DNA of 64,000 nt from Rubripirellula tenax (GCF_007860125.1 NZ_SJPW01000005.1:62001-126000), one strand, 5' to 3'. Positions 4,623 to 44,616 are shown, counted from the first letter of the stretch. A program made the numbers and translations. The notes: generated by a model from the sequence alone, not told the origin.

Positions 4623-4638
4623 AGCGATTGACGTACCG
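4623..4638 (-). promoter_or_regulatory. sigma-54 (-24/-12) promoter of small membrane gene
   Basis: Minus-strand CGGTACGTCAATCGCT: GG and GC separated by exactly 10 bases, matching TGGCACRNNNNTTGCW except at the C of -12 TCGC and two -24 positions. It lies 46 bases before the ATG at 4577. Confidence 0.55.
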
Positions 4639-4701
4639 CGTGCCATTTCAACCCGATCAAGCTGATGAACGGTCGCACCGTGACGACACGGATCACTTCA
4701 G

Positions 4702-4717
4702 CGTGCAAATGGTCACG
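4702..4717 (-). promoter_or_regulatory. putative activator site (CGTG-N8-CACG)
   Basis: Minus-strand CGTGACCATTTGCACG, one mismatch from the shared CGTGC-N6-GCACR palindrome. It ends 65 bases upstream of the -24 GG of the promoter at 4623-4638. The rest of 4578-4826 shows nothing else that I can name. Confidence 0.5.
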
Positions 4718-4826
4718 GTCGAGACAATTGGCAAGGACATTTGGCGCGGCATGCAGAATGCCATCCTCCGTCGTGGAAGATATCGCCCGAACCGAAAGCG
4801 CAACAATGATGCTGGTCCGTCAATAA

Positions 4827-5123
4827 CTTTCCGACGAACACTCGGCTGATCTGATTCGCGATCGTTTGCAGATTGAAAACAAGCTGGACTACCTCGCCGA
4901 TTTTGTCTGTGTCGCGATCGACGGCACCGTGACGACGTTCGCGGTCGCGTCAGTCTTGGCGGGTGCCGATTTGTCGTCGAGTATCGTGATCATTCGTGGA
5001 GCCGCCGCGTTGTTGGCGTTTTTGGTCGGCATGGCTTGGGGAAGTGTTGTCGGGCAGTCGATCTATTCTGCTTCACGCAGCGATTGGTGGCATCGCACGC
5101 AACTGACGGTCAACTGGTGGTAG
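4827..5123 (+). pseudogene. VIT/CCC1-family transporter, N-terminal fragment
   Basis: From 4827 (just after an in-frame stop) the frame reads DEHSADLIRDRL, then YLADFVCVAIDGTVTTFAV and VLAGADLSSSIVIIRGAAALLAF. This matches the start of VIT1/CCC1 membrane transporters of iron or manganese, which usually begin EHSPEAIRERL and carry DGxVTTFAV in helix 1. Only about 80 of the usual 230 or more residues remain, and the frame runs antisense into the end of the cytochrome gene. No good start codon precedes it. Confidence 0.75.
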
Positions 5124-5494
5124 GCCAGGGTAACGCCATCAATGTTCTCTTGTTTTGCTTGGCGAATCACTTCGTCCGTCACGCGTTCAAATGCGTGCAC
5201 GTGTCCTCGATACTCCGGATTGCGATTTCGCACGAAGCCTTCGATCTTGTTGAGCATTCGCATTTGATTGGCATTGGTCTCAATCAAGTCAAAATCGCTG
5301 AATGCAAGGCCTCGCAGTATTGCGGTTGAATAGTCGAGCTTCTTTTGCATCCAAAAATCGAGCGGTTGCGTGCTCGTTTCGGATGGAACCACATCTTGGG
5401 TTGCGTCGGCAATCTTGGATTGCGTGGTGGGGTCTTGGGAGATCGCAAAGGGTGAGAACGCGAGTGCCAGTGTGATCATGGAAAGTAAACGCAT
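5063..5494 (-). CDS. secreted small c-type cytochrome
   Basis: 143 residues: a signal peptide (residues 1-19, cut near AIS-Q), about 110 mostly helical residues, and a single haem-binding CVRCH at residues 132-136 close to the C terminus. A C-terminal CXXCH in a protein of this size is the layout of class II cytochromes (c'/c556-like four-helix bundles), so it is probably a periplasmic electron or ligand (O2, NO) carrier. The start is fixed by AGGAGCTTGAAAG before the ATG and by a sigma-54 promoter 54 bases upstream. A paralogue lies at 18273-18683 beside stress-protein genes. The end overlaps the VIT fragment. Confidence 0.8.
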   Translation of the reverse strand: MRLLSMITLALAFSPFAISQDPTTQSKIADATQDVVPSETSTQPLDFWMQKKLDYSTAILRGLAFSDFDLIETNANQMRMLNKIEGFVRNRNPEYRGHVHAFERVTDEVIRQAKQENIDGVTLAYHQLTVSCVRCHQSLREAE

Positions 5495-5547
5495 CTTTCA
5501 AGCTCCTGTGGAATCGACATGAATTGAAACGTAGTTCGGTGAGCGTA

Positions 5548-5563
5548 GGCAACCCTCGTGCCG
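5548..5563 (-). promoter_or_regulatory. sigma-54 promoter of cytochrome gene
   Basis: Minus-strand CGGCACGAGGGTTGCC, an almost perfect -24/-12 element (GGCACG, TTGC, correct 10-base spacing), 54 bases before the ATG at 5494. Confidence 0.75.
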
Positions 5564-5596: not shown

Positions 5597-5612
5597 CGTG
5601 CATCAACGCGCG
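5597..5612. promoter_or_regulatory. putative activator site between divergent sigma-54 promoters
   Basis: CGTGCATCAACGCGCG, one mismatch from CGTGC-N6-GCACR. It lies 35 bases from the -24 GG of the cytochrome promoter and 61 bases from that of the hydB operon. A further half-site GTGCAC follows at 5615-5620. Confidence 0.5.
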
Positions 5613-5671
5613 GCGTGCACATTCGCACTGTTTCGTGGGCGAACCTGCGTCCCGAACGCGAGTTTTCCCGG

Positions 5672-5687
5672 TGGTCCAGCGATTGCG
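5672..5687 (+). promoter_or_regulatory. sigma-54 promoter of CNB-hydB-ATPase operon
   Basis: TGGTCCAGCGATTGCG, with GG-N10-GC. It lies 28 bases upstream of the ATG at 5716, so transcripts would start near 5698. That excludes the longer reading frame from 5524. Confidence 0.7.
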
Positions 5688-5715: not shown

Positions 5716-6204
5716 ATGAAACCAGATGACACAGACCCATTGAATTCGATTGGCATCGGTGACGGCCTTTGCGGAACCGATCGAACCAGGCTACGTCGTT
5801 TGGCGGTTACGGTGGATTGCGATGCCGCCGATACTATCTTTCGCGAAGGAGAACGGCATCCGTTTGTCTATTGGGTCGTCGAGGGTCAGGTTTCCCTCGA
5901 AATGGCTACCAGCGGAACGAACATGCAACCACTGATCACGCTCGCCACCGGTGATCTGCTGGCTTGGTCGGCGTTGCTGACGAACCGACGCATGAGCGCG
6001 ACGGCCAACACGACCGAGCCGACGCGGTTGCTGCGTTTCCAAACCGATGAACTGCTGGCGTTGTGTTCCGTCAACCATGAGATCGGATACCACGTGATGC
6101 AGCACATCGCCGCTCAGTTGGCCCAGCGACTGTTGGCGACTCGATTGCAAATGCTGGATCTATTTCGGCATCCGACCACTACCAGTGCGGAGCCAATCCA
6201 GTGA
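5716..6204 (+). CDS. cyclic-nucleotide-binding-domain protein
   Basis: 162 residues from ATG 5716, chosen because the sigma-54 promoter ends only 28 bases before it and GGAGG lies at 5699-5703. The body is one Crp-type cNMP-binding beta-roll: FREGERHPFVYWVVEGQVSLEM around residues 40-60, a GDLLAWSAL turn, and a helix with MQHIAAQLAQRL. No DNA-binding helix-turn-helix follows. Such a protein commonly precedes the hydrogenase beta subunit in group 3b operons, so it may sense a ligand for the enzyme rather than act as a transcription factor. Its GTGA overlap with hydB indicates translational coupling. Confidence 0.8.
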   Translation: MKPDDTDPLNSIGIGDGLCGTDRTRLRRLAVTVDCDAADTIFREGERHPFVYWVVEGQVSLEMATSGTNMQPLITLATGDLLAWSALLTNRRMSATANTTEPTRLLRFQTDELLALCSVNHEIGYHVMQHIAAQLAQRLLATRLQMLDLFRHPTTTSAEPIQ

Positions 6205-7307
6205 ACGTGTCCGCTGTCCGCTTTCTCGCTCGTGACGACTTGCAGTCGTTGATCGAATGCTTAGTCGACAGCGGGTACGACGTCATTGGCCCCACCATCG
6301 CTCAACAGGCCATCGTCTATCGCAGTGTTCGCAATGTCACCGAACTGCCGCTTGGCTGGACGGACCATCAAGAACCGGCGGTCTACCGGTTGAACGAAGA
6401 CCCTTCCGAGCGAATGTTTCGATTCAATTCGAGCCCTGATTCATGGAAGCGATTTTTCTTTCCGGCATCATCGGAGATCGGCACCGCAACTTTAACCGAT
6501 GACGGTTGGCAATTTGAAACCCCCACGGCATCAACGCCGCGATACGCATTGCTTGGCGTACGGGCTTGCGATCTGGCGGCGATCGCGGTGCAAGATCGCA
6601 TTTTTCGTGACAATGACTATGTCGACACGGCCTACCGCCGACGGCAAGAAGCCGCCTTCATCGTTGCGGTCAATTGCGGAACGGCCGCAAGCACTTGTTT
6701 CTGCACTTCGATGGGCACCGGCCCGCAGTGCAATGCTGGATACGACCTTTTAATGACCGAGATCAACGACGGCTTTTCGATCGAATCGGGCTCTGATCGC
6801 GGGGCGGAAGTTCTTGAAGGGCTCAACACGATTGAATTGAAGACATCGCAAGCCGAAGAAGCCGCTGCTGAAATCCAGAACGCTCGCGACAGCATCACCA
6901 AACGATTCGATACCGAGGGCGTCCATGATTTGTTGCTCAACAATTTGGAACATGCGAACTGGGCGGCGGTGGCCGAGCGTTGTTTATCGTGTGCGAATTG
7001 CACGATGGTTTGTCCGACGTGTTTTTGTTCGACCGTGGATGAAGTCGCGAACCTTTCGAACACGGAAGTCACCCGCGTTCGGCAATGGGACAGTTGTTTC
7101 AACATCGACTTCAGCCGCACCGCGGGCGGCGTCGTTCGCGACGACACACGTAGTCGATATCGACAATGGCTGACGCACAAGCTGGCGACCTGGAAAGACC
7201 AATTTGACGTCTCCGGGTGCGTGGGCTGCGGTCGCTGCATCACTTGGTGCCCGGTCGGAATTGATCTGACCGCTGAAGTTGCGGCATTGCGGGAATCCAA
7301 ATCATGA
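6201..7307 (+). CDS. hydB: group 3b-like hydrogenase, 4Fe-4S beta subunit
   Basis: 368 residues, GTG start overlapping the previous stop. This is the iron-sulfur electron-transfer subunit of NAD(P)-linked bidirectional hydrogenase/sulfhydrogenase. Two ferredoxin motifs are visible: [12 protein letters not shown] from residue 261 and [12 protein letters not shown] from residue 340. [13 protein letters not shown] segment near residue 170 and VRACDLAAI near 130 are typical of the HydB/anaerobic sulfite reductase A family. Its partners (gamma, delta, alpha) lie 28 kb away at 35.6-38.6 kb on the other strand, whereas the four are usually contiguous. ATGA overlap with the ATPase gene downstream. 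Confidence 0.9.
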
Positions 7308-10030
7308 GTGCAATAACGGATGCCCTATCGAAACCGAAAGCGGATGATCCAGCGGCCGCGCACGCTCAAACCGTTTCGTCGACGCTTGCGAAGTGGGAGA
7401 CCTCAGCCGAGACCGGTTTAAGTAGCAACGAGGTCACGCGACGCCGCGAAACGCATGGTGTTAACACGATTCAAACCAGTGAGACCGTGCGTTGGCATCA
7501 GGTGCTGATGAGGCAGTTCGCCGACGTCTTGATCATCATCTTGGTGGTCGCCGGGTTGGTTTCCGCAGCCGTGGGTGAGGCGACCGATGCGATCGCGATC
7601 TTTGCGATCGTGGTCTTGAACGGGCTGTTGGGGTTTGCCCAGGAATGGAAGGCCGAACGATCGCTCGCTGCTCTGCGCCAAATGCTTGCACCGCGATGTC
7701 GTGTGATTCGTGAGGGCGACGAACGCGAGATCGACGCTGCGGACTTAGTACCCGGTGACCTTGTTCAGATTGAAACCGGCGATCGAGTTCCGGCAGACTT
7801 GCGAATCACGCGTTGCATGAATTTGAAGATGGACGAGTCCGCGTTGACGGGCGAATCAGTCTCGGCGGAAAAATCGAACGAGCCGGTCGACGAAGCAACG
7901 GACCTCGCCGAGCGAACCTGCATGGCTTGGACGGGCACCGCCGCGACGGCTGGCCGCGGGATGGGCGTTGTTATTGCGACGGCATCGAATACGGAGTTCG
8001 GCCGCATCGCCAAGCTGACCGAAACGATTGACCGCGATACCACGCCGCTGCAACAAAAGCTGAGCGTTCTCGGCAAGCAACTTGGCACCGCCGCCGTGGT
8101 CATTTCGATTCTCGTCGCGTTGACCGGTTGGTGGATGGGCAAGCCGCTCATGGAAATGTTCTTCACGGCGGTCTCGTTGGCGGTTGCCGTGGTGCCCGAA
8201 GGCTTACCGGCCGTGGTCACCTTGACGCTGGCATTAGGCGTTCGGGAGATGGTGCGACGCAAAGCACTTCTGCGTCGATTGCGAGCGGCGGAAGGCTTGG
8301 GCTCAGCAACAGTCATCTGCACCGACAAAACCGGAACATTGACGCAGAACCAAATGACGGTCCAGCGAATCTGGTTGGTCGCCGGCGAAGTGACGGTCAC
8401 GGGCGTGGGTTGCGATCCCGCAGGCCATTTTGAAGTCGCGGGCGAAAAGATTGACTACCGCAAGCGTGAAGACCTGCTGGCGTTGCTGCGTTCGGGTTTG
8501 CAGTGCAATCATGCGCGACTGAAGAAGGATGCCGATGGCTGGCAACCGATCGGCGAGCCGACCGAATCGGCGATCGTCGTCGCGGCTCACAAAGCATGGA
8601 TTGATCCAAGCGAGCAACCCCAACCGGACCACGAATTTTCGTTCACGTCGAATCGAAAACGGATGACCGTGATCGCCGATCAAGATGGCGCTTCGATCGC
8701 GCATACGAAGGGTGCCCCCGAGGTTCTGCTGCTACTATGCAACGACATCTTCGATGGCGACGTGGTGCGTCCGCTGACATCCGAAGATCGACAAAACGTC
8801 GCCACGGCGATCGAAGACATGGCTGGTCGAGGATTGCGAACGCTGGCGATCGCGCGTCGTGAAGTGTGTGTCGGCGAGGCCTGTGATGAGCAAAGCGTCG
8901 AATCGAGTCTGACATTGCTGGGCATCATCGGCATGATGGACCCGCCTCGCGTCGAAGTTCCCGAAGCTATCGCGTTGGCCAAGGCGGCGGGCATTCGCGT
9001 CTTCATGATCACGGGTGATTCACCAGTGACGGCCACCGCGATCGCTCGGCAGATCGGGCTGAAGGTGGATCAAGCTATCGTTGGCGCTCAACTTGAAGCG
9101 ATGGATGACAAGACGCTGGAAGACGCACTGGACGGCGATGTTGTTTTCGCACGCACGACGCCCGAGCACAAACTGAGGATTGTCAAACTACTACAGTCTC
9201 AAGGTCACATCGTTGGCATGACCGGCGACGGCGTGAACGATGCACCGGCACTGAAAAAAGCCGACATTGGCATTGCGATGGGCAAACGCGGAACCGATGT
9301 CGCCAAAGGTGCCGCCGACATTGTGCTGACGGATGATAATTTCAGCTCGATCATTGGTGCGGTCGAAGAGGGTCGCCGGCAATACGACAACATTCAAAAA
9401 TTCGTTCGCTATCTTTTGTCGTCCAACACCGGCGAAGTGGTGGCGATCTTCCTGAACATTTTGATGGGCGGACCGCTGCTGTTTTTGCCGGTGCAGATCC
9501 TGTGGATGAACTTGGTCACCGACGGATTGACCGCCGTCGCCCTCGGACTAGAACCTGCTGAAAAGAACACGATGCACCGACCACCTCGACGTCCCGACGA
9601 ACCGGTGTTGACCAAGTCGGGCATGGCGGTGATTGCGGCACTGGGAACTTACGTGGGACTGGCCTCGTTGTGGTTGTTTCACCACTACCTTGACGACGCT
9701 GACCCTGGATCCATCGCGATCGCTCAAACGGTGGCGTTCACGGGAATCATTGTGGTCGAAAAGATCAATGTGTTGAACTTTCGTTCGCTCGCCGCACCCA
9801 TTTGGACGATCGGATTTTGGTCCAATCCGTGGGTATTGTTGGCGATCGCTTCGACAATTTCATTGCAAGTCGCCGCTGTCTATGTGCCCGCGCTGCAGTC
9901 TGTCCTGCACACCGTTCCGCTATCGCTGACAGACTGGATGTTGATCGTCGCAGTCGCGCTTCCGGTCTTTGTTTTGGTGGAGATCATCAAGGCGATCGCG
10001 TGGATTCGACCGCGTCGTGAGACAGCCTGA
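7304..10030 (+). CDS. P-type cation ATPase (Ca2+-ATPase type)
   Basis: 908 residues with the full order of a P2-type ATPase: N-terminal cation-ATPase domain, actuator domain with LTGESV, membrane motif PEGLPAVVT, phosphorylation motif DKTGTLT (Asp341), nucleotide domain, [22 protein letters not shown] hinge, and a C-terminal block of about six membrane segments. It probably exports Ca2+ or Mn2+ at the cost of ATP; the exact ion is inferred. It is the third gene of the operon that starts at 5716, with a 4-base overlap. Similar ATPases occur in the mycobacterial hypoxia regulon (CtpF), which agrees with the stress-cluster context. Confidence 0.9.
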
Positions 10031-10049: not shown

Positions 10050-10065
10050 CGTGCACCGGTGCACG
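10050..10065. promoter_or_regulatory. perfect 16-bp palindrome, putative activator site
   Basis: CGTGCACCGGTGCACG, fully self-complementary, the best copy of the CGTGC-N6-GCACR motif. It ends 33 bases upstream of the -24 GG of the fbaB promoter. Confidence 0.65.
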
Positions 10066-10096: not shown

Positions 10097-10112
10097 TGGA
10101 TCGCAAGTTGCA
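10097..10112 (+). promoter_or_regulatory. sigma-54 promoter of fbaB
   Basis: TGGATCGCAAGTTGCA: TGG, TTGCA and the 10-base spacing are all canonical. It lies 42 bases before the ATG at 10155. Confidence 0.7.
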
Positions 10113-10154: not shown

Positions 10155-11207
10155 ATGTCTGCCTCCATCACAGAACTGCTCGGCAATGACGCCGACTATC
10201 TACTCAATCACCAAAGTCAAACCATCCCTCAAGATCGGCTGCACGTTCCCGGTGCAAATTACTTGGAACGTGTTGTCTGTGGAAGCGACCGCAATCAACG
10301 CGTCATCAACAGCCTGTCGAGAATCTTTGGCCATGGGCGATTAGCTGGCACCGGCTATGTTTCCATCCTGCCGGTTGACCAAGGCATCGAACACTCCGCG
10401 GGTGCATCGTTCGCTCCCAACCCCGACTACTTCGATCCAGAAGGCATTGTTCGGTTGGCTATCGAAGGCGGTTGCAACGCGGTTGCATCAACGATCGGAG
10501 TGCTGGGGGCGGTCTCACGGAAGTTCGCTCATCGAATCCCGTTCTTGGTAAAGATCAATCACAACGAACTGCTTAGCTATCCCAATTCGTACGACCAAGT
10601 GATGTTCACCAGCGTCGATCGGGCGTACGACCTGGGTGCCGTTGCGATTGGAGCGACCATCTACTTCGGATCCGAGGAATCACGGCGACAGATCGTCGAA
10701 GTTGCTGCGGCGTTTGAGCGTGCTCACGAGTTGGGCATGGCGACGGTGCTGTGGTGCTACCTTCGCAATCCCGCTTTCAAAAAAGATCAAGACTATCATA
10801 CGTCCGCCGACTTGACCGGCCAAGCGAATCACCTGGGCGTCACGCTGCAAGCCGACATCATCAAGCAGAAACTGCCGACGAACAACGGCGGCTACAACGC
10901 GGTCCAGTTCGGCAAGACATCAACATTGGTTTACGACAGACTCACGACGGATCATCCGATCGACCTGTGTCGCTACCAAGTGGCGAACTGCTACATGGGT
11001 CGCGCGGGACTGATCAATTCCGGCGGCGCGTCGTCAGGTGCGTCGGATCTGGCCGAGGCCGTCAAGACAGCGGTCATCAACAAACGCGCCGGCGGCACCG
11101 GCTTGATCTCCGGTCGCAAGGCATTCCAACGTCCGGTGGCCGAGGGCATCGAACTGCTCAATCGAATCCAGGATGTTTATCTGGATGAGACGATCACGGT
11201 GGCCTAG
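10155..11207 (+). CDS. fbaB: class I fructose-bisphosphate aldolase (DhnA/FbaB type)
   Basis: 350 residues, the same length as the E. coli FbaB family. It cleaves or forms fructose 1,6-bisphosphate through a Schiff-base lysine. Family hallmarks are visible: [24 protein letters not shown] near residue 65 (split here by the 20-residue limit as [15 protein letters not shown] then AGASFAPNP), [12 protein letters not shown], a [11 protein letters not shown] loop and a C-terminal phosphate-binding [12 protein letters not shown]. The start ATG fits the sigma-54 promoter upstream. It sits ahead of a glycogen debranching gene, so both could channel stored glycogen through glycolysis under energy stress. 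Confidence 0.92.
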
Positions 11208-11235
11208 CATCTGTGATCGAAATCCATGCTCGTCC

Positions 11236-11284
11236 TGGCTCCCCTCTCCCCTCTCCCCGCTTCGGGGAGAGGGGTGAGGGGCCG
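11236..11284 (+). repeat. left inverted repeat flanking the DUF559 gene
   Basis: CTGGCTCCCCTC, then a hairpin CTCTCCCCgcttCGGGGAGAG followed by GGGTGAGGGG. Its reverse complement matches 11681-11728, so the two copies face each other around the nuclease-like gene. Confidence 0.85.
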
Positions 11285-11299
11285 TCCTACGGAGACATC

Positions 11300-11749
11300 A
11301 TGACAAACGAACACCCCCGGTCGAAACGCAATCCCGAACGCACGAAGTTCGCACGCGATCAGCGACAACAAGCGAATGAGTTTGCTCGAGACGTTTGGGA
11401 ACTTGTCCGAGGTCGTCGTATCCAGAACGCCAAGTTCCGTCGGGAGCATCCGGTTGGTCCGTATACGCTCGACTTTGTCTGCTTGGAGTTGAAATTGAAC
11501 CTGGAGATTGACGGCAAGGATCACTTTACCGAAGAGGGGCGCTCACGTGATGCGAAACGCGATGCGTACTTGAAGCGACTCGGGTTCGAGGTGCTACGGA
11601 TTAACGGGTATCGCGTCACTCAGGATCGCGGTGCGGTGAGGAACGAGATCGAACAAGTAGTGCTGAGGTTGCGCTCGAGTGCCCCTCACCCCCAGCCCCT
11701 CTCCCCGAAACGGGGAGAGGGGAGCCAGGATGCTGAAAATGACCGCTGA
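11300..11749 (+). CDS. DUF559 (Vsr-like nuclease fold) protein
   Basis: 149 residues from ATG 11300 with GGAG 5 bases upstream. The core is DUF559, a PD-(D/E)XK-type fold related to very-short-patch repair endonucleases: ARDQRQQANEFARDVWELV, FRREHPVGPYTLDFVCLE, then LEIDGKDHFTEE and a YLKRLGFEVLRINGY ending. The final 20 residues are encoded by the right-hand repeat. The gene is a compact unit between two inverted copies of a GC-rich palindrome, placed between fbaB and glgX, and it overlaps the glgX start by 20 bases. It probably arrived with the repeats; activity is unproven. Confidence 0.8.
   Translation: MTNEHPRSKRNPERTKFARDQRQQANEFARDVWELVRGRRIQNAKFRREHPVGPYTLDFVCLELKLNLEIDGKDHFTEEGRSRDAKRDAYLKRLGFEVLRINGYRVTQDRGAVRNEIEQVVLRLRSSAPHPQPLSPKRGEGSQDAENDR
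11681..11728 (-). repeat. right inverted repeat flanking the DUF559 gene
   Basis: Inverted copy of 11236-11284 with the hairpin CTCTCCCCgaaaCGGGGAGAG. It codes for the DUF559 C-terminal tail, and its end supplies the purine-rich stretch GGGGAGAGGGGAGCC directly before the glgX ATG at 11730. Confidence 0.85.
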
Positions 11750-19661: not shown

Positions 19662-19675
19662 AATGTTTTCTTTCG

Positions 19676-20619: not shown

Positions 20620-20635
20620 CGCAGCTACGATGCCA
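20620..20635 (-). promoter_or_regulatory. sigma-54 promoter of stress-protein operon
   Basis: Minus-strand TGGCATCGTAGCTGCG, GG-N10-GC, 45 bases before the ATG at 20575. Confidence 0.7.
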
Positions 20636-20677: not shown

Positions 20678-20693
20678 CGTGCTTCCATGCACA
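20678..20693. promoter_or_regulatory. putative activator site between divergent sigma-54 promoters
   Basis: CGTGCTTCCATGCACA fits CGTGC-N6-GCACR exactly. It is 44 bases from the -24 GG of the minus-strand promoter and 63 bases from that of the plus-strand promoter. Confidence 0.6.
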
Positions 20694-20754
20694 GGTGCGC
20701 GATCAGGATCGCTTTGGATGGTTGTCGGCGATCACGGTGTCGCGAAATGTCAGC

Positions 20755-35633: not shown

Positions 35634-36925
35634 GTTCGCTCCATCGTCAGCGTCAGGAAGTGCGTCGAACAACTGATGCAGGGATCGTAGTTACGGATCA
35701 GCTTCTCGCACTCCGCTGCAACGATTTCGTCAGGCTCGCCAAGCAATTTTGGTAGATACTCACGAAGGTCCGATTCAATCTGCAGTTGATTCTGCGACGT
35801 CGGTGGGACGATCTTCGACGAGGCAACCGTGCCGTCTTCTTTGATTTGGTAATGATGATAAATCATGCCACGAGGAGCCTCCGTCGCCGCGCAGCCGTCA
35901 CTCGCCTTGGGTTGGTACGAAATGAATGGTTGCGGTGGCGGCTCGTAGCTTTCGATGATGTCAATCGCTTCCTCCAATGCATGCACCACCTCGATGCTGC
36001 GAGCGATAATTGAGTGGAAACGGTTTCGCATCGGCAACGGTGGGCAGACGTCTTTGAAGAGCCGCTGAGCATTCGGAAACAGCCGTGCGTGGTTCAATTC
36101 CAAACGTGCCAGCGGTCCCAAAAAGTACGGCGTCTGATGATCACGGCGGACGGACTGCAAAGCCGTGCTGTGCGCCGCATGTTGCTCGCTGAAGTGGTGC
36201 TCGTAATCGTCGACCGAGATTGACGGATAACGCGTCGACGCGATCACGCCTTCGTTCATCGGATACTCGTCGTCGTGTTGCAAAGCGACCAATTCGCAGT
36301 CGATGTTGAACTCGGGAAAATCGAACGTGGCCACCCAACGGGTCATCTCGATTGCCGCTTGCAATGCCCATTTCAAATCAGGAAGGCAAACCGTTAGTTC
36401 ATCGCGAGTGGGCAGCTTGTAAAACCCGCCGACACGAACATTGACCGGATGGATGGCTCGACCGCCCAGAACCTCCAACAACTGGTTTCCGGTCTTTTTG
36501 ATGCGTAAACCATCGTTGATACGATCGGGAAATCGCTCGGCCAGTTCGATGCCGCTGTGGCAATCAAAAAAATCGGGTGCGTTGAGCATAATGATGTGCA
36601 GCACATGACTTTCGATCCATTCGCCACAGTACAACAACCGCCGTAGCGTGCGGATGCCGGGCGATATTTCGATGCCAAGTGCTTTCTCGATCGCGTGAAC
36701 GGAGGTCATTTGGTAGGCGACCGGGCAAATGCCGCAGATCCGAGCGGTGATGTCGGGGACTTCCTCGATCGCTCGACCCCGCAAAAACGATTCAAAGAAG
36801 CGTGGCGATTCATAGATCGACAGCTTCACGCTTTCGACAGCATTGCCGCGAACACGAATATGAAGTGCCCCCTCGCCTTCGACTCGCGTCAACGCATTGA
36901 CCGTGATTTTTCGTTCGTTGGTCAT
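35630..36925 (-). CDS. hydA: [NiFe] hydrogenase large (alpha) subunit, group 3b-like
   Basis: 431 residues from ATG 36925; a TTG at 36931 would add two. It holds the Ni-Fe site: RICGIC (Cys64, Cys67) and DPCISCSTH (Cys416, Cys419, His422), with a 9-residue tail FLTLTMERT for the protease to cut. ITVNALTRVEGEGAL opens the chain. Group 3b assignment rests on the partner set (HydB, FAD/NAD gamma, delta) and on the length. The palindrome at 36933-36990 ends 8 bases before the start, and no ribosome site is visible, so translation may rely on coupling or be weakened. Confidence 0.93.
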   Translation of the reverse strand: MTNERKITVNALTRVEGEGALHIRVRGNAVESVKLSIYESPRFFESFLRGRAIEEVPDITARICGICPVAYQMTSVHAIEKALGIEISPGIRTLRRLLYCGEWIESHVLHIIMLNAPDFFDCHSGIELAERFPDRINDGLRIKKTGNQLLEVLGGRAIHPVNVRVGGFYKLPTRDELTVCLPDLKWALQAAIEMTRWVATFDFPEFNIDCELVALQHDDEYPMNEGVIASTRYPSISVDDYEHHFSEQHAAHSTALQSVRRDHQTPYFLGPLARLELNHARLFPNAQRLFKDVCPPLPMRNRFHSIIARSIEVVHALEEAIDIIESYEPPPQPFISYQPKASDGCAATEAPRGMIYHHYQIKEDGTVASSKIVPPTSQNQLQIESDLREYLPKLLGEPDEIVAAECEKLIRNYDPCISCSTHFLTLTMERT

Positions 36926-36932
36926 GATCAAT

Positions 36933-36990
36933 GTGGGATAGGCTTCCAGCCTGTCGTTGCGATGAATGACAGGCTGGAAGCCTATCCCAC
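36933..36990. repeat. 58-bp palindrome between hydrogenase subunits
   Basis: 23-base perfect arms GTGGGATAGGCTTCCAGCCT(GTC) with a 12-base loop. The TAG inside GTGGGATAGG is the stop codon of the delta subunit, and the other arm ends just before the alpha start. Confidence 0.93.
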
Positions 36991-37761
36991 GTTTCCCTCC
37001 AGTCGATCGCTTTCGATTTGAAACACGTTCGCCGCCGCGTTCATGTTACGCAGTGCGTGAATCATCTGGGTCGCGGTTGTTTCGCCGCTCAAATGATGCT
37101 GTGATAACGCGGGGCAGTTCGCTTGGGCCGCCGGGCCGAAACATCCGTAACACGGCCGATCGTAGGCAGGGCATATCGCACCGCATCCCGCTTGGGTGAT
37201 CGGGCCGAGGCACGGTAAACCCCGAGTGACGACCAAACACACTGTTCCGCGGCGTTTGCATTCCAAACAAACGCTGTGTCGCGGTGTTCGTGGATGGCAA
37301 TCGGCGATCAGGGCCGCCAGAATTTCAAGCAATTGATGCCGGTCGATCGGGCATCCTCGCAATTCAAAATCAACCGCGACGTGGTCCGCGATCGCGGTGC
37401 TGGTGGCAAGCGTTTCAATGTACTCGGGATGTGCATAGACCGAAGCGATGAACTCTTCGTGATCGGCCCAGTTCCGCAGCGCCTGGATACCACCCGCCGT
37501 CGCGCACGCTCCGATCGTGATCAGCGTTTTCGATTGACTGCGGATGTCACGAATGCGTTTCGCATCTGCAGCCGTGGTGATGGAACCTTCGATCAAAGCG
37601 ACATCGAACGGTCCCGGACCGACATGGCTGCTGGCTTCCAAAAAGTGAGCGATTTCAATCTTTCCGGCCAGTTCGATCAGCTCGTCCTCGCATGACAACA
37701 ATGACAACTGGCAACCGTCGCAGGAAGCAAATTTGAAGACGCCGAGCCGTTTCTTGGTCAT
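36982..37761 (-). CDS. hydD: [NiFe] hydrogenase small (delta) subunit
   Basis: 259 residues. It carries the FeS relay to the Ni-Fe site: FASCDGCQLSLLSCE at residues 11-25, ITIGACATAGG, RGCPID, CLECKRRG, CLVVTRGLPCLGPITQAGCG and CPAYDRPCYGCFG. There is no Tat signal, so the enzyme is cytoplasmic, as group 3 enzymes are. The last two residues and the stop (TAG at 36984-36982) lie within the palindrome, so the original C terminus has been replaced. ATGA overlap with the gamma gene. Confidence 0.93.
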   Translation of the reverse strand: MTKKRLGVFKFASCDGCQLSLLSCEDELIELAGKIEIAHFLEASSHVGPGPFDVALIEGSITTAADAKRIRDIRSQSKTLITIGACATAGGIQALRNWADHEEFIASVYAHPEYIETLATSTAIADHVAVDFELRGCPIDRHQLLEILAALIADCHPRTPRHSVCLECKRRGTVCLVVTRGLPCLGPITQAGCGAICPAYDRPCYGCFGPAAQANCPALSQHHLSGETTATQMIHALRNMNAAANVFQIESDRLEGNVG

Positions 37762-38603
37762 AGCGAATCCACCCGCATCAAACGATTGACTTGGTCATAG
37801 CGCAGCACCGGTCCGTCTTTGCAAATGAAGTACGGTCCCAATTGGCAATGACCACAGTGACCGATCGCACAATTCATGTTGCGTTCAAGGGATAGCCAAA
37901 GGTTGTCACGCGGAATACCACGTTCGCGTACCGCACGGATCGCGTACGTCATCATGACATCGGGGCCGCAGCAAAACAGCACCGTACGACTGGGTTGCTC
38001 AATGCTCAAACGATTCAACAGCAATGTGACGACGCCGACGTGGCCGTTCCAGTTCTTTAACGCTCGATCCACCGTCGTTTGCACGTTGATTCCGCAGCTT
38101 GACCACGCGTCGTACTGGTCAGCGTACAGCAAGTCCGCGGGCGTTCGAGCACCGATCAGCAGGCTCACTCGTCCAAACTCGTCCCGATGTTCGGTGACGT
38201 GTTCAATGACGGGGCGCAGCGGTGCGAGGCCGATTCCGCCGGCAACCAGAACCAAATCGTTTCCACGAGCGTCCTCGATCGGCCAATGCGAACCGAACGG
38301 ACCGCGGATTCCGATCGAATCCCCCGGCGTGAGCCTGGCCAGTGACTGCGTCACGTTCCCGACGGCTCGCACTGTGTGAACCAACGGATCTCCCGGAGAC
38401 GCCAGGCGACTGAGCGAGATCGCGGACTCGCCGACGCCCGGCAAATACAACATGTTGAATTGCCCGGGTAGCGACGAGTACGCTTCTCTAGCATCGCTAG
38501 CCGAAAGCTCCATGTAATACGTCGTCACGCCCGGCGTTTCATCGTGCATCTCGACAATCTTCGCCGAAGCGATCGTCCACGGGTCAACTTGCGGCGACAG
38601 CAT
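37758..38603 (-). CDS. hydG: hydrogenase gamma subunit, FAD/NAD(P)-binding
   Basis: 281 residues from ATG 38603. It is a ferredoxin-NADP reductase-like diaphorase: SLPGQFNMLYLPGVGESAIS for FAD, LVLVAGGIGLAPLRPVIEH for NAD(P), FCCGPDVMMTYAIRAV, then the C-terminal [2Fe-2S] cysteines in LERNMNCAIGHCGHCQLG and FICKDGPVL. It passes electrons between NAD(P)H and the beta subunit. It overlaps the stress-protein gene by 20 bases, which ties the hydrogenase to that operon. Confidence 0.93.
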   Translation of the reverse strand: MLSPQVDPWTIASAKIVEMHDETPGVTTYYMELSASDAREAYSSLPGQFNMLYLPGVGESAISLSRLASPGDPLVHTVRAVGNVTQSLARLTPGDSIGIRGPFGSHWPIEDARGNDLVLVAGGIGLAPLRPVIEHVTEHRDEFGRVSLLIGARTPADLLYADQYDAWSSCGINVQTTVDRALKNWNGHVGVVTLLLNRLSIEQPSRTVLFCCGPDVMMTYAIRAVRERGIPRDNLWLSLERNMNCAIGHCGHCQLGPYFICKDGPVLRYDQVNRLMRVDSL

Positions 38604-39504
38604 CAGACACCTCTTCCGCTTCCACGTCCGATGTCCAGTGATGACGCGAAATCCAAACACTGCATGGGGCATGACGCAGCACATACTTCGACGTGCTTCC
38701 CAACATCAACTGGCCCAGCAGACTGTGTCCGGTGTCACCGACGACAATCAATCCCGCGTCGTCGTCCTCAGCGGCTTGCACGATCGCTTCGCCCACGTGA
38801 GCGGCCACGGGCGTCTTGGCGTTTGTATGCGGAAAGTGCTCTGCGATCTGACTGGCCATTCGTTCGGCGGCTTCGTCCAACCGATCGACTTGTTTCGGAT
38901 CAACGGTGATGGGAACACCAATGTAGCCTTCGTCCGCGTAGTCATAGGGCTGCGGCACCACACTGATGACGTCGATTTGGCGATCACGCGGCAGGTTCCA
39001 CTGCGTGAGTTCAGCCACCGCTTCGCGTGATGCAATGGATTGATCGAATCCAAGGACGATGCGTTGGATACCACTGCCGGATTCCGGTTTGGATCGAACC
39101 ACAACGACGGAACACGTCGCGCTGGTGGCGATGCTGTCGGACACGCTGCCCAGCAAAACACGTCGCACGGCGGAGTGCCCCTTCGCACCCAGAACGATCA
39201 AGTCCGGCTTCAGCGACATGGCTTTGTCCAGGATGCAGGGCACCGTTGCGCCGGAGCCGTGGACGAGCGTGACAGATTTGCAAACGTCTTTGAGTGACGT
39301 TTCGGCAGCCTCCAGGATCGCTTTGGTTCGGAGGTTCTCTTGTTCGGTCCATTCGGTAACCCAGGGCTGCATCGAATAATGAGCCGGGTCATACGAAACC
39401 GTCAACACAACAACGTCGATGTCGCGGTTTTGTGCGAGTGTTTTGACAAGGTCGACGGCATCACTGGCGGGCTGCGAGCCATCGGTGGGGAGCAGGATTT
39501 TCAT
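38584..39504 (-). CDS. tandem-domain universal stress protein, first gene of hydrogenase operon
   Basis: 306 residues from ATG 39504 (MKILLPTDGSQPASDAV). Both domains carry the ATP-binding signature: GAKGHSAVRRVLLGSVSDSI near 130-150 and GDTGHSLLGQLMLGSTSKYV near 265-285. It is the promoter-proximal gene of an 11-gene unit that ends with hypE at 29319. A stress protein at the head of a hydrogenase operon, under the same sigma-54 promoter, is direct evidence that the hydrogenase belongs to the stress response. Confidence 0.9.
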   Translation of the reverse strand: MKILLPTDGSQPASDAVDLVKTLAQNRDIDVVVLTVSYDPAHYSMQPWVTEWTEQENLRTKAILEAAETSLKDVCKSVTLVHGSGATVPCILDKAMSLKPDLIVLGAKGHSAVRRVLLGSVSDSIATSATCSVVVVRSKPESGSGIQRIVLGFDQSIASREAVAELTQWNLPRDRQIDVISVVPQPYDYADEGYIGVPITVDPKQVDRLDEAAERMASQIAEHFPHTNAKTPVAAHVGEAIVQAAEDDDAGLIVVGDTGHSLLGQLMLGSTSKYVLRHAPCSVWISRHHWTSDVEAEEVSDAVAAS

Positions 39505-39606: not shown

Positions 39607-39622
39607 CGTGCGTGTGTGCACA
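39607..39622. promoter_or_regulatory. putative activator site of hydrogenase operon
   Basis: CGTGCGTGTGTGCACA fits CGTGC-N6-GCACR, 33 bases upstream of the -24 GG, the same distance as at fbaB. Confidence 0.6.
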
Positions 39623-39688
39623 GGTTGTGACGGAGGCGTGCGTCGGTGCGCGAGTGAGAGAGCAAAGAACCTTCACCGAAACACACTG

Positions 39689-39911: not shown

Positions 39912-39960
39912 CGCAATGTTTCGGCCGGGTCCAGCGAATCCTTGGCGATGTCAGCGACTT

Positions 39961-40257
39961 TTAGAACTGAAACACGAACCCGTCATGCTCGCGGCGATAC
40001 TCGGTCAACGCGTCTTCGTCGGCATCGGACAACGATTGATCACGAAACGAAACTTCACACGCACTCGGCCCATCCAACCCGCCAAGGATGTTCAACAGCG
40101 TCGACTTGCCGCTACCCGATGCGCCCAAGATGACCACAAAATCCCCGGCGAACATCTCAACATCAACGGCTCGCAACGCATGAACATCGACTTCGCCCAT
40201 GCGATAGACCTTGGTCACGCCGCGGGTGGTGAAGGCGGTGGTTTGGATGGTGGACAT
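39961..40257 (-). pseudogene. MacB/LolD-type ABC ATPase, N-terminal fragment
   Basis: 98 residues from ATG 40257: [20 protein letters not shown], Walker [19 protein letters not shown], then [15 protein letters not shown] and a stop just at the Q-loop. The signature motif, Walker B and the rest are gone. With the adaptor fragment it marks a former macrolide/peptide efflux operon lost by deletion. Confidence 0.82.
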
Positions 40258-40265
40258 GGAGAGGT

Positions 40266-40382
40266 TTGACGCAGAGTCGGGGAGGCGACGAGACGCGGAG
40301 CTTTGGTGGGACGGTGGCAACGCAGAACAAGATCAGAAACCTTGAATCTTTGCGTCCCCGCGTCTCCCCGCCTCTGCGTCGA
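40266..40382. repeat. GACGCAGAG-type inverted repeat, copy 6
   Basis: Left arm TTGACGCAGAGTCGGGGAGG, right arm CGCGTCTCCCCGCCTCTGCGTC, with a centre of about 50 bases, between the ABC ATPase fragment and the activator site at 40453. Confidence 0.88.
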
Positions 40383-40452
40383 GTTCTCCCCCAACGATGC
40401 ACCGCCGTTACCGCCACGATTCCACGTCAAACCAAAACTCAAACCAACCAAA

Positions 40453-40468
40453 CCGTGCGTCCTTGCAC
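40453..40468. promoter_or_regulatory. putative activator site of DUF4404 operon
   Basis: CGTGCGTCCTTGCACG fits CGTGC-N6-GCACR exactly, 65 bases upstream of the -24 GG. Confidence 0.6.
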
Positions 40469-40531
40469 GCACCCGTGCTTTCAGGACCACATCAAGCAAA
40501 AACAACGCATTCCGATGCATCATCTCGCGAC

Positions 40532-40547
40532 TGGAATACGACGTGCG
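40532..40547 (+). promoter_or_regulatory. sigma-54 promoter of DUF4404/hydrolase operon
   Basis: TGGAATACGACGTGCG, GG-N10-GC, 48 bases before the ATG at 40595. Confidence 0.62.
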
Positions 40548-40594
40548 ACGTTCCAGGATCAGTCACCCCCGTTCCCCGCTTTGAGTCCACCATC

Positions 40595-40852
40595 ATGCAA
40601 GAGTCGCTGCAAACTACACTGCGGAAGCTTCACGACCAGCTCGCCGAACTCGACGGCCTGGATTCCGCCGAGCGTGAACAACTTGAAATCGCGATCCATG
40701 AAATCCAAGACAGCCTGGACCGTTTTGACATCAGGTCATCCGATCTCGCCAAACGGTTCTACCAGTCGACCGAAAAATTCTCCGAGAACCACCCGCACCT
40801 GACCCAAACCGCCGGCCAATTCGCTGACGTGTTATCGCAAATGGGCATTTGA
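40595..40852 (+). CDS. DUF4404 family small helical protein
   Basis: 85 residues, beginning MQESLQTTLRKLHDQLAELD and ending TAGQFADVLSQMGI, as DUF4404 proteins do. All helix, acidic, cytoplasmic; function unknown. The start fits the sigma-54 promoter; the longer open frame upstream spans the promoter and is not used. It lies 31 bases before the hydrolase gene and is probably co-transcribed. Confidence 0.85.
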   Translation: MQESLQTTLRKLHDQLAELDGLDSAEREQLEIAIHEIQDSLDRFDIRSSDLAKRFYQSTEKFSENHPHLTQTAGQFADVLSQMGI

Positions 40853-42109: not shown

Positions 42110-43549
42110 ATGAGAGACGAGCTAAACATCTTGCTCGTCGAAGACGATCCCGACGGGCAAGCTAACCTGGTCGACGTTTTGGAATTGGACGGACACCAAG
42201 TGCGGGTCGTCAGCAGCCTGGGCGAAATCCGTGATGCTGGCGTTCGAGATGATGTCGAGCTGGTGATTTTGGATCGCTTGCTGCCGGATGGGAACGTCGA
42301 AGACGCGCTCCCCGAACTCACCGAATGGCTTCCCCAAGCCGAGTTCATTGTTGTGACCGGCTTCGCCGATGTGGAAAGCACGATCAAGGCGTTTCGGTTG
42401 GGTGTGACCGATTACATGCTCAAACCGGTCCATCCGGATGTGATCCGTCAGAGCGTCGCGCGGATCGCCCGCCAAAAACGCATTGAGATGGAGCTTCATC
42501 AACAGCAACAATTTGCCAACCAGATTTTGGATACGGCTGAAGGCTTCATCGTCGTGCTCGACCTGCAAGGACGCGTGGTGCGAGTCAATCAACACTTCAC
42601 CAAGGTCACCGGTTGGCAACAGGAGCAATTGGTGGGCAAAGAATACATCGAGCACTGCATCCCCGAAGTTGAACGCGTTCGTCTTCGCGAAGTCTTTCAT
42701 ACCGCTGTGGATGGCAACCAATGTTCGGGGGTTTGCAACGGAGTCCTGACGACCACCGGCCGCGTTCGGCAGATCCGCTGGTCCAATTCCACTTTGAAAA
42801 ATAGAGACGGCACCATCACCGCCGTGCTGGGGATCGGAGTCGACGTCACCGATGTCATCGAAGCACAAGAAGCCGCCGCGAGGGATCATCGCTTGGCCGC
42901 GATCGGTCAAACGGTCGCCGGTCTGGCTCACGAAAGTCGCAACGCACTGCATCGCATCCAAACCGCCGTCGAAATCCTGCGACTCGATATTCCAATCGAA
43001 TCCGAGTGCCGCGAAGAAGTCGATTCGGTCGCCCGCGCCGCGACGGAACTGAACAATACTTTGGAGGAGGTCAGGCAGTTTGCCGCTCCGATTCACTTGC
43101 ACCGAGAATCCGTCCTACTGCACGAAGTCTGGCAACGCGTTTGGGGTTACCTGTCCAAAGTTCGCGGCAACCGCGACGCACAACTCGTCGACGCCGATTG
43201 TGGGTGTCCGGTGAAGGTGGACGTGTTGCGAATGGAACAAGTGTTTCGCAATCTGTTTGAAAATTCCTTGGCCGCTTGCGAAGATCCGGTTTGCATTCAC
43301 GTTCGCTGCAAGTGCGACGGACCCGAAATGATCTTGGTGGAAATGGAAGACAACGGTCCCGGCTTGGACGCGGAGCAACGCGAGAAACTCTTCGAGCCCT
43401 TCTACACCACGAAGGCCCGCGGCACCGGACTTGGAATGTCCATCGCTCAGCGGGTCGTGGAAGCACACGGTGGCGACATCCAAGTCGGTGATGCTCCTGA
43501 ACAAGGTGCCAAGTTTCTGATCCGGTTGCGAAAAGAATTCTCACGGTGA
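42110..43549 (+). CDS. hybrid REC-PAS histidine kinase
   Basis: 479 residues, cytoplasmic: an N-terminal receiver (pocket EDD, phospho-acceptor Asp55), a PAS domain around 130-250 (ILDTAEGFIVVLDLQGRVV, VTGWQQEQLVGKE), a HisKA segment with LAHESRNALHRI (His274) and a HATPase domain with NLFENSLAAC, DNGPGLD and GTGLGMSIAQ. GGGGAT precedes the ATG. No membrane segment, so it senses an internal cue (redox, ligand or another kinase through its receiver). It is the only complete kinase in the window and the best partner for the NtrC-type regulator, although 16 kb away. Confidence 0.9.
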   Translation: MRDELNILLVEDDPDGQANLVDVLELDGHQVRVVSSLGEIRDAGVRDDVELVILDRLLPDGNVEDALPELTEWLPQAEFIVVTGFADVESTIKAFRLGVTDYMLKPVHPDVIRQSVARIARQKRIEMELHQQQQFANQILDTAEGFIVVLDLQGRVVRVNQHFTKVTGWQQEQLVGKEYIEHCIPEVERVRLREVFHTAVDGNQCSGVCNGVLTTTGRVRQIRWSNSTLKNRDGTITAVLGIGVDVTDVIEAQEAAARDHRLAAIGQTVAGLAHESRNALHRIQTAVEILRLDIPIESECREEVDSVARAATELNNTLEEVRQFAAPIHLHRESVLLHEVWQRVWGYLSKVRGNRDAQLVDADCGCPVKVDVLRMEQVFRNLFENSLAACEDPVCIHVRCKCDGPEMILVEMEDNGPGLDAEQREKLFEPFYTTKARGTGLGMSIAQRVVEAHGGDIQVGDAPEQGAKFLIRLRKEFSR

Positions 43550-44170
43550 CGCATTCGCGTGGACGCTGTATTCGCGTTGCGGCTTGCGTGTGAAGGCGAA
43601 TCGAGGTTGTGGCGTTGGCTCTCGCCGACAACTGTGAATGAACTTAGCGAACTCGCTTGCAAAGTCGTCAACGTTATCCCAATTGGTGAATTCGTAGTCG
43701 CGATTCAGTTCGGTGGGACGCCATGACTTCTCGGCGATCCAGTGCATCAGCCGTTTCTTCAGCCATCCGTATCGAGAGTAGCGAAGGGCTCCGGCGAAAC
43801 AGGCTCGACGCGATGGGGTGAAGTTTTCTTCCTGCAAAAACTCGTCGGCAAGCCGTCTGGCCTCGGCACGATCCTTGAATCTCTTGCTGACGATTCCAAG
43901 GCTCACCGAAAAGAACGCGGCCGGGATATCGGCGAGCAAATCACGGTGTTGACGAATGCACCAAGCGATTCGCGGATCGTGCTGGGCGTAGTGCAACGAC
44001 GATCCCAAGACGACCGCCTCGTACGATTCCACCGCCAACTCGGTGATGTCATGCCGAGTCACGTCAAACGTGTCGGTCGGCACACCGCCGGCGGTCATGC
44101 CTTTGGCGATTCGCTGTGCGATCTGTTCGGTTTGCCCTTCGCAAGTGGCGTAGATGACGATGGCGCGCAT
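43541..44170 (-). CDS. flavodoxin-domain protein (HemG-like)
   Basis: 209 residues from ATG 44170: FMN-phosphate loop YATCEGQTEQIAQRIA near residues 6-21, VVLGSSLHYAQHDPRIAWCI, and FAGALRYSRYGWLKKRLMHWIA. This is the protoporphyrinogen oxidase HemG/flavodoxin_5 pattern, which oxidises protoporphyrinogen IX with electrons to quinone, even without oxygen. Haem supply for the c-type cytochromes would be a fitting role. A 40-residue tail after AKFIHSCRR is extra. In an operon with the BON gene; its end overlaps the kinase gene by 9 bases. Confidence 0.82.
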   Translation of the reverse strand: MRAIVIYATCEGQTEQIAQRIAKGMTAGGVPTDTFDVTRHDITELAVESYEAVVLGSSLHYAQHDPRIAWCIRQHRDLLADIPAAFFSVSLGIVSKRFKDRAEARRLADEFLQEENFTPSRRACFAGALRYSRYGWLKKRLMHWIAEKSWRPTELNRDYEFTNWDNVDDFASEFAKFIHSCRREPTPQPRFAFTRKPQREYSVHANASP

Positions 44171-44199
44171 GGGTTGGATCTCCTGTGGACTTGTTGGAT

Positions 44200-44484
44200 T
44201 CAAAGCTCAACGCGGACGTTGTTTCGGATTTGCAGACCGATCGCAGGCGACCGCACGGCTTCCTGGGCGAGTTGCTTGAGGTAGTACGACTTCACACGAC
44301 CCGACGAAACGATCTCGCCATCTCGCAGCATCACTTCAATACGATCCAACCCGCGGTGGCCCGCTCGTCGAATCGCCTGTTCAAACGCAAGTGTCTTTTC
44401 ATCCGACGCATCTTCAGGCGGTCGCGTGCTCACCTTTGCATGAAAACGAGTCACGACGTGCTCGACCGATTGGACCAATGACAT
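44200..44484 (-). CDS. BON-domain-like protein
   Basis: 94 residues, no signal peptide. Residues 30-94 look like one BON (OsmY-type) alpha/beta module: FEQAIRRAGHRGLDRIEVML, GEIVSSGRVKSYYLKQLAQE and a final strand. BON modules bind lipids or ligands; these appear next to stress genes in several bacteria. It precedes the HemG-like gene by 29 bases. A -24/-12-like match upstream has 11 rather than 10 intervening bases and is not claimed. Confidence 0.65.
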   Translation of the reverse strand: MSLVQSVEHVVTRFHAKVSTRPPEDASDEKTLAFEQAIRRAGHRGLDRIEVMLRDGEIVSSGRVKSYYLKQLAQEAVRSPAIGLQIRNNVRVEL

Positions 44485-44600
44485 AAGCTAGCATTGACGA
44501 GAAGAATGCAAGAGTCGGAACCATCGCGATTCGCAAAATCAATCCAAAGCGAACCCCATGCCGAAAGATGATTCAGTCTTCGGAACCTAAACCCTGTTAG

Positions 44601-44616
44601 CGGCATTGGGTATGCA
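44601..44616 (+). promoter_or_regulatory. sigma-54 promoter of PAS-kinase remnant
   Basis: CGGCATTGGGTATGCA, GG-N10-GC, 49 bases before the ATG at 44665. Confidence 0.55.

Follow-up and report, generated by a model that had tools for sequence, protein, structure and literature searches.

DosR (DevR) of mycobacteria is a NarL-type regulator, and HoxA, HupR and FhlA are NtrC-family activators of hydrogenase genes. We analysed a stretch of 64,000 nucleotides from Rubripirellula tenax (the window; NZ_SJPW01000005.1:62001-126000, or G000:C5:62001-126000 in an own genome, G000, of 8.0 Mb and 42 contigs), in which several Usp genes, a P-type cation ATPase gene and a gene for an AAA_33 protein form part of a cluster that we take to resemble the DosR system. 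Unlike DosR, the regulator encoded here is of the NtrC type, with a sigma-54 activator domain; unlike the hydrogenases under HoxA, HupR and FhlA, which are of other types, the one encoded here is sulfhydrogenase-like and lies within a stress-gene regulon. From its sequence, the cluster is very probably the core of an autoregulated NtrC-family/sigma-54 regulon under the regulator encoded at 24756-26204.

The nearest described counterpart, NmpRSTU of Myxococcus xanthus, is described (PMC11841059) as an autoregulated system in which an NtrC-like regulator works with sigma-54 and paired palindromes; one promoter was shown to be hypoxia-induced, and the targets include Usp, hemerythrin, P-type ATPase and cbb3 oxidase. 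The window shares with NmpRSTU the NtrC-type regulator, sigma-54, the paired palindromes before the targets and the regulator's own gene, and Usp, hemerythrin and P-type ATPase among the targets. A regulator, a receiver-kinase hybrid and a sensor kinase also stand in one locus, both in the window, where the sensor is truncated, and in region G000:C8 of the same genome; NmpRSTU includes a receiver-only protein, and a stand-alone receiver is found here in the paralogous cluster. The NmpRSTU spacing of about 30 bp from site centre to site centre also occurs at Usp3 promoters here. The binding site of NmpR, GCGCA-N5-TGCGC, differs: it was found, at no more than one mismatch, in 1 of 36 upstream segments (the chosen sites, minus one partner of each shared divergent gap), against 0.55 in shuffles, whereas GTGCG-N4-CGCAC, a motif derived from the same segments, occurred in 12 of 36 against 0.4; NmpR and classical NtrC consensus sites were not enriched in these segments. 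NmpU senses via a protoglobin, whereas the kinases here carry PAS domains, and the word hydrogenase is absent from that paper. We regard the likeness as probably functional and claim no membership, because neither an enrichment of the NmpR consensus nor a globin sensor above the cut-off was found.

For planctomycetes, the accessible part of a bulk study (PMC12316311, in which Studholme and Dixon 2004 is reference 27) reports Usp (COG0589) and NtrC-type regulator (COG2204) genes as enriched among predicted Planctomycetia sigma-54 targets; that part gives no enhancer motif and ties no hydrogenase cluster to a planctomycete regulator. We found no comparable planctomycete regulon in the open-licence papers that were searched. 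Given the NmpRSTU precedent and these bulk predictions, the regulon is not wholly new in kind, and the original prediction, made from the window's sequence, went too far in calling it a new regulatory solution. Planctomycetes, a large group whose regulatory biology is little known, would gain a concrete regulon with its regulator, probable DNA code, promoters and sensors.

The NtrC-type regulator

Gene identities were taken from Pfam and NCBIfam searches of the open reading frames (ORFs) of the window, and the window was compared with regions from the same genus (G002, G011, G018), from the same family (G034, G032, G027) and from its own genome (G000:C8, G000:C7), and with further loci numbered L.

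24756-26204, minus: NtrC-type response regulator with a receiver, an AAA+ sigma-54 activator domain and a Fis-type helix-turn-helix (HTH) (Pfam, translation)

The AAA+ domain matched PF00158 with 239 bits, and its loop reads GSFTGA, of the GAFTGA type. The closest named relatives are SV_7m_r (88%), Rhodopirellula rubra (78%), Aporhodopirellula (76%), R. sallentina (74%) and Stieleria (70%); titles name planctomycetes for 24 of the 25 regulator loci at 60% identity or above and only 'bacterium' for one. The recognition-helix region, ARKLGIHRRKLYRLL, varies little or not at all among the window protein, the C8 and C7 paralogues, G002, G011, G034 and L132. The genome holds one rpoN (one Sigma54_DBD match, 212.5 bits) and 22 matches to the sigma-54 activator domain, some of them weak. 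The original claim of one activator stood for the window, where the NtrC-type protein is the only DNA-binding response regulator among the scanned ORFs (NarL types were not searched for in the rest of the genome); genome-wide it fell, because paralogues with 84% and 67% identity are also encoded.

Sigma-54 elements before the operons

Three GG-N10-GC elements quoted by the original prediction were found where it had placed them: CGGCACGAGGGTTGCC at 5548 (minus), TGGCACACCGACTGCG at 39560 (minus) and TGGATCGCAAGTTGCA at 10097 (plus). Its other twelve sites were not listed, and candidates were rebuilt by scanning the window with a GG-N10-GC scoring matrix. The following candidates are supported as sigma-54 elements, that at 40532 weakly; d is the distance of the element from the gene start.

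5548-5563, minus: before the CXXCH gene; d = 53 (53, 55, 54 and 52 in G002, G000C8, L126 and L127; 4/4 rows)
5672-5687, plus: TGGTCCAGCGATTGCG, before the cNMP/hydrogenase-beta/ATPase operon; score 8.4, d = 28
10097-10112, plus: before the class I aldolase operon; d = 42 (the sole orthologue, in G002, has TGGATCAAAAATTGCA at d = 43)
20620-20635, minus: before the Usp2-Usp1-h136 genes; d = 44 here, 30-34 in relatives
20755-20770, plus: before the gene at 20817-21398; d = 46 (47, 43 and 46 in 3/5 loci)
23615-23630, minus: before a dihydroorotate-dehydrogenase-like (DHODH-like) gene (start 23565); equal distance in G002, L125 and G011C6, 60 in G034
26256-26271, minus: GGGTATGTCATTCGCA, before the regulator gene; score 8.7
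26849-26864, minus: before the hemerythrin gene; d = 29 here, 29-30 in G002 and L125
26896-26911, plus: before the class II amidotransferase gene; d = 13-17 in G002 and L125
39560-39575, minus: before the Usp3-hydrogenase-hyp operon; d = 55 (49-58 in 5/6 loci, 66 in the sixth)
40532-40547, plus: weak element before the DUF4404 gene (40595-40852, plus); score 7.0, same site in G002 (9.0)
44601-44616, plus: before the PAS sensor kinase gene; score 10.3, d = 48

As had been described, the sites occur in both orientations and in divergent gaps. Counterparts of the 5672 element score 12.0 at d = 26 in L126 and 9.2 upstream of the ATPase gene of G002, and lie at other distances in G034 and L140. The 20620 element has aligned counterparts in G002 (two genes), L125 and G000C8 and none in G011C6 or G034; those of the 20755 element score 14.9 in G002, 11.1 in L125 and 12.9 in G000C8. 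Elements like that at 26256 were found in G002, L125, G011C6 and G000C8, and at other distances in L126, L127, L128, G034 and L140, with GG/GC aligned in 3 of 10 rows; for the 39560 element, GG/GC was aligned in all 6 rows. Of the 21 kinases matched outside the window, 8 have a counterpart of the 44601 element upstream (scores of 10.5-15.3, d = 41-66); most of the other 13 are more distant kinases.

Among curated operon heads, 12 of 19 had a site scoring at least 8.4 in the 130 bp upstream, compared with a mean of 1.06 (maximum 5) in 500 sets of dinucleotide shuffles and with 6 of 86 heads from other parts of the genome; the 8.4 threshold was chosen after the data had been seen, and the 12 include the PEP-utilising-enzyme fragment. 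At a threshold of at least 10, the curated heads gave 8 of 19, the shuffles 0.32 and the control heads 2 of 86. Naive ORF heads gave only 5 of 15 at 8.4 or above and 3 of 15 at 10 or above. Sites at the same distance (±6) were present in 25 of 51 window/orthologue pairs versus 2.5 expected, although two of the 25 (Usp1 and the Fer4 gene) are coding matches.

An upstream alignment with MAFFT, made without the motif matrix, left a footprint at -24/-12: identity was 0.76 at GG/GC, 0.40 in the spacer and 0.39 and 0.42 in the flanks (44 pairs from 11 promoters, i.e., rows at 45% identity or above plus DUF4404), and all four GG/GC bases were kept in 28 of the 44 orthologue pairs. For the two closest relatives, G002 and L125, the values were 0.95 at GG/GC, 0.47 in the spacer and 0.41 and 0.41 in the flanks, with the four bases kept in 15 of 16 pairs, a subset that omits two G002 paralogue rows. 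The 44-pair version is weaker than an earlier alignment of 28 pairs, mostly picked for having a site, but clear. Shuffles, control heads and the motif-free footprint agree that the sites are better than chance, which confirms the GG-N10-GC observation at the level of the sequence.

Several other matches were set aside. The 13819 site, without an orthologue for comparison, was counted as not supported, as were the sites at 4517 and 4623, which stand before a truncated PEP-utilising-enzyme fragment. The 19753 site coincides with what look like the codons of RHAPC at the end of a Usp protein, with similar matches in G002, G011C6 and G034; the 6134 site lies inside the cNMP gene, and the 35278 site inside the ORF read as the hydrogenase protease.

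The search revealed no site in the 200 bp upstream of the AAA_33, DHODH-like (15.5-16.6 kb) and receiver-PAS kinase genes, or in the 130 bp upstream of the rhodanese gene. Because these genes lack a site, the cluster is not 40 kb of uniform control, and the original prediction was too generous in this respect. Its proposal of a sigma-54 regulon with an NtrC-type activator over hydrogenase, stress-protein, hemerythrin and aldolase operons was borne out by the regulator domains, the one rpoN and the enhancer palindrome described below.

A probable enhancer palindrome above the sigma-54 elements

We found a new palindrome, CGTGCGA-N2-TCGCACG, which the original prediction had missed; it is often paired and stands 37-77 bp above the -24 element in the window. 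An unsupervised search of the 36 segments gave a log-likelihood of 108 at width 16 and 117 at width 18, against 43-44 in four shuffled sets at width 18. At 8.5 bits or above, the palindrome was present in 25 of the 36 segments and present twice or more in 11, with a spacing of mostly 17-18 or about 30 bp. In a hold-out test with 300 shuffles, the motif from 20 promoters of other genomes was recovered at p < 0.05 in 11 of 19 own-genome promoters (Fisher 5e-9); divergent partners share gaps, and the tests are thus not all independent. The palindromes in the window, with their hold-out p values, were as follows.

5597-5629: paired palindromes (5597-5612, 5614-5629) in a divergent gap; p 0.02, match to the genome-wide pattern
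10050-10065: palindrome CGTGCACCGGTGCACG; p 0.18, match to the genome-wide pattern
20678-20711: imperfect palindromes in the divergent gap between Usp2 and the 20817 gene; p 0.15-0.16 (G000C8 0.03-0.04)
26293-26326: adjacent palindromes (26293-26308, 26311-26326) upstream of the regulator gene; p 0.01
39607-39652: paired palindromes (39607-39622, 39637-39652); p 0.02, match to the genome-wide pattern
40454-40469: palindrome in the divergent gap between an ABC ATPase remnant (39961-40320, minus) and the DUF4404 gene (plus); conserved in G002 and G000C8

The geometry of the 5597-5629 pair (-65/-66 and -48 to -50) is kept in G002 and G000C8. At the 23615 promoter the enhancer palindrome is not clear. 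A shorter palindrome, TGCAC-N2-GTGCA, was dropped; it occurs at few promoters, and its high count in one flanking stretch probably came from N read as a match.

Joint placement in the genome and probable autoregulation

GTGC-N6-GCAC combined with the sigma-54 core gave 22 matches in 8 Mb versus 21 in the reversed control; six of the 22 lie in the window (binomial 2e-8) and six in a 27-kb paralogous cluster. This pattern was partly derived from window sites, and other genomes alone gave the same consensus. One of the six window matches (40399-40468) combines a conserved palindrome with a weak sigma-54 part. A stricter pattern gave 13 matches versus 8 in the control in the own genome and 10 versus 4 in G002; a negative control with one extra base between GG and TGC gave 11 versus 13 in the reversed control.

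Upstream of the regulator gene, 18 of 25 orthologues (L125-L149, which are kin and hence not independent) had a joint score above that of shuffles at p < 0.05, compared with 3 of 47 control NtrC genes; the latter are 47 of the 55 loci L150-L204, three having been dropped as too short upstream and five for no reason. Two 400-base slices from each of 22 of the 25 orthologue loci showed no match to any motif-training stretch. We infer that the regulator is autoregulated via the palindromes at 26293-26326.

Sensors and proposed mechanism

42110-43549, plus: whole receiver-PAS-histidine kinase hybrid of NmpS-like architecture, without a sigma-54 site
44665-45270, plus: N-terminal piece of a PAS sensor kinase, in which homology ends at 45153

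A paralogous cluster at 95-125 kb of G000:C8 (L063, L064) encodes the 84%-identical regulator, with the same palindrome and HTH, and has its own Usp and ABC-exporter genes. There the regulator is encoded together with a receiver-PAS kinase, two PAS kinases and a stand-alone receiver domain. The PAS sensor of the window cluster has probably been lost, to judge from the truncated gene, and a whole homologue is present in the paralogous cluster. The two clusters probably cross-talk, which is the likelier because the local PAS kinase gene is truncated. An IS3-type transposase gene (45556-46434) lies about 0.4 kb past the end of the PAS kinase homology, and a serine recombinase gene lies at 46699.

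In the proposed mechanism, a phosphorelay would run from the PAS kinase through the receiver-PAS kinase to the regulator, as in NmpRSTU. The phosphorylated regulator would bind the palindromes 37-77 bp above the -24/-12 element, and its GSFTGA loop would contact sigma-54. Divergent operons for Usp proteins, the CXXCH protein, the hydrogenase, the Hyp maturation proteins, the P-type ATPase and the aldolase would then be driven, and the regulator would also turn on its own gene. The hydrogenase would be a sulfhydrogenase-like enzyme, presumably of group 3b, whose beta subunit is encoded 30 kb from the other subunits; the regulon offers a reason how these distant subunits could be co-produced. 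Low oxygen or energy stress would be the probable signal.

Opposing evidence and alternative explanations

Several results weigh against this regulon. The scoring matrix was built from the general sigma-54 consensus. The four GG/GC bases were unaligned in 16 of the 44 pairs, some of which have a site at another distance and others none that was found. No sigma-54 site was found for the 20817 gene in L126 and L127, nor upstream of the regulator gene in G032, G018 or the C7 paralogue, with a weak one in G027; G032 and G018 also gave no joint palindrome/sigma-54 matches. Among the 18 passing orthologues, eight have a weak -24/-12 match, the palindrome carrying the score, and L147 is without a palindrome. 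Taken alone, the palindrome was no commoner in the window than in shuffles (6 versus 10.6, at 11 bits or above), and for this reason it is informative only together with its position. In a survey of 60 relatives, the strict joint pattern failed, among the matches listed, to separate genomes with the regulator from those without, and its counts against the control were 3 versus 2 in G011, 5 versus 14 in G034 and 15 versus 5 in G029. Finally, the hemerythrin, amidotransferase and PAS-kinase promoters showed no palindrome in the scanned stretch of up to 150 bp above the site, and no recognised globin domain was found in a set of five kinases or in the window kinases.

The last of these points bears on the nature of the signal, which may be something other than oxygen (redox state, starvation, metal), the likeness to DosR and NmpR then lying only in the kind of genes; we consider this possible, if doubtful. 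The sensors are of the PAS-kinase type, the one protoglobin match in the own genome falls below the family cut-off, and PMC12316311 terms similar planctomycete regulators ZraR-like. However, Usp, hemerythrin and P-type ATPase are gene types also found in the NmpR hypoxia regulon. A hydrogenase also fits low oxygen, which we counted against another signal. If the regulon does answer to oxygen, low-oxygen programmes of the Usp/hydrogenase type would be under unrelated regulators across phyla, of the NarL type in mycobacteria and of the NtrC type in Myxococcus and here. We put at about even chances the broader proposal of a clade-wide, Pirellulaceae-type low-oxygen/dormancy regulon, in which an NtrC-family regulator, sigma-54, a palindrome code private to two paralogous regulators and a PAS/receiver-kinase relay would do DosR's job with unrelated regulators and couple a split-operon hydrogenase to stress proteins.

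A second alternative, which we consider unlikely, is that two or more activators are at work: the 24756 regulator and its 84% paralogue on the palindrome promoters, and another for the hemerythrin, amidotransferase, DHODH-like and PAS-kinase genes. On this view it is a sigma-54 neighbourhood and not a single regulon that the cluster represents. Since conserved sigma-54 elements stand without a palindrome at the hemerythrin, amidotransferase and PAS-kinase promoters, these must be taken to use weak sites or a second activator, and the activator-domain matches elsewhere in the genome and the two close paralogues of the regulator add to the case. However, the hemerythrin, amidotransferase and DHODH-like genes adjoin the regulator in G002 and L125 too, and activators may act via weak or distant sites that the scan of up to 150 bp missed. 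That the GG-N10-GC elements arose by chance or from coding sequence in a GC-rich genome, with the genes under sigma-70-type or ECF promoters, is strongly disfavoured and highly improbable: 103 windows score at least 8 in the 64 kb, mostly not above listed gene starts, and some clearly belong to coding sequence, as with the RHAPC codons in Usp genes, but this reading has against it the -24/-12 footprint (flank identity about 40%), the same-distance conservation, the shuffles, the control heads and the coupling to the palindrome.

Genes and repeats of the cluster

The genes before which the elements of the NtrC-family/sigma-54 regulon stand were read as follows.

5063-5494, minus: small CXXCH-containing protein (translation; no Pfam match)
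5716-10030, plus: operon of a cNMP-binding protein, a sulfhydrogenase-type beta subunit (6201-7307) and a P-type ATPase (7304-10030)
10155-13817, plus: class I fructose-bisphosphate aldolase (10155-11207), DUF559 protein and isoamylase-like GH13 protein (11679-13817)
18687-20575, minus: two tandem-Usp-domain proteins (18687-19661; the second with its start at 20575) (Pfam)
26331-26819, minus: hemerythrin
start near 26929, plus: class II glutamine amidotransferase
29319-39504, minus: operon of Usp3, hydrogenase gamma, small and large subunits, an ORF read as maturation protease, HypA, HypB, HypF, HypC, HypD and HypE
37758-38684, 36982-37761 and 35630-36931, minus: hydrogenase gamma, small and large subunits, respectively
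35109-35672, minus: ORF read as maturation protease (no Pfam match)
31461-31718, minus: HypC (named by eye)

The hydrogenase beta subunit gene is thus about 30 kb away from those of the other subunits. In NCBIfam, the best matches were ShyA for alpha, HydB for beta and, for gamma, AsrB (sulfite reductase) before ShyC/HydG, all under the curated cut-offs; the delta subunit was recognised by Pfam only. The best Protein Data Bank match of the large (alpha) subunit was cytosolic NiFe hydrogenase 5yxy/sulfhydrogenase 1. The tested genes of the Usp3-hydrogenase-hyp operon keep the same order in G011C6. Perfect inverted repeats, GTGGGATAGGCTTCCAGCCTGTC, lie at 35566-35622 and 36933-36990, in and between genes of this operon.

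The P-type ATPase resembles Ca-ATPases. The aldolase, DUF559 and GH13 genes are probably co-transcribed, to judge from their overlap; the label of central carbon metabolism originally given to the cluster rests mainly on this one class I aldolase operon and was overstated beyond it. A helix-hairpin-helix protein and DHODH-like proteins are also encoded in the cluster (Pfam/NCBIfam). The gene at 20817-21398 encodes a conserved regulon protein of 193 amino acids with no Pfam or NCBIfam match; several of its homologues have sigma-54 sites, and a 32%-identical one in G000:C8 reaches the full matrix score (18.1).

An interspersed GC-rich repeat, GACGCAGAGGCGGGGAGACGCAG, occurs at 13859, 15405, 21403, 24180, 24670, 24728, 40268 and 40358, mostly between genes (8 matches at no more than three mismatches versus 0.01 expected). 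A copy at 40268-40380 separates the ABC ATPase remnant from the conserved palindrome beyond it, and the loss of a sigma-54 element near the remnant may be due to this copy. The remnant itself (39961-40320) comes from an ABC-transporter ATPase gene, and G000:C8 has an ATPase/FtsX/HlyD operon ahead of Usp. Two ORFs in this stretch, 39916-40269 and 40266-40802, are probably not real genes: conservation is best in the frames of the ABC ATPase (minus) and DUF4404 (plus).

The CXXCH protein at 5063-5494 is an apparent homologue of that at 18273-18683, one G002 gene matching both. At the left edge of the cluster (3079-4623), an apparent transposase fragment, recognised by eye, accompanies the partial PEP-utilising-enzyme match, and L126 and L127 have a homologue of the latter fragment close to the CXXCH gene.

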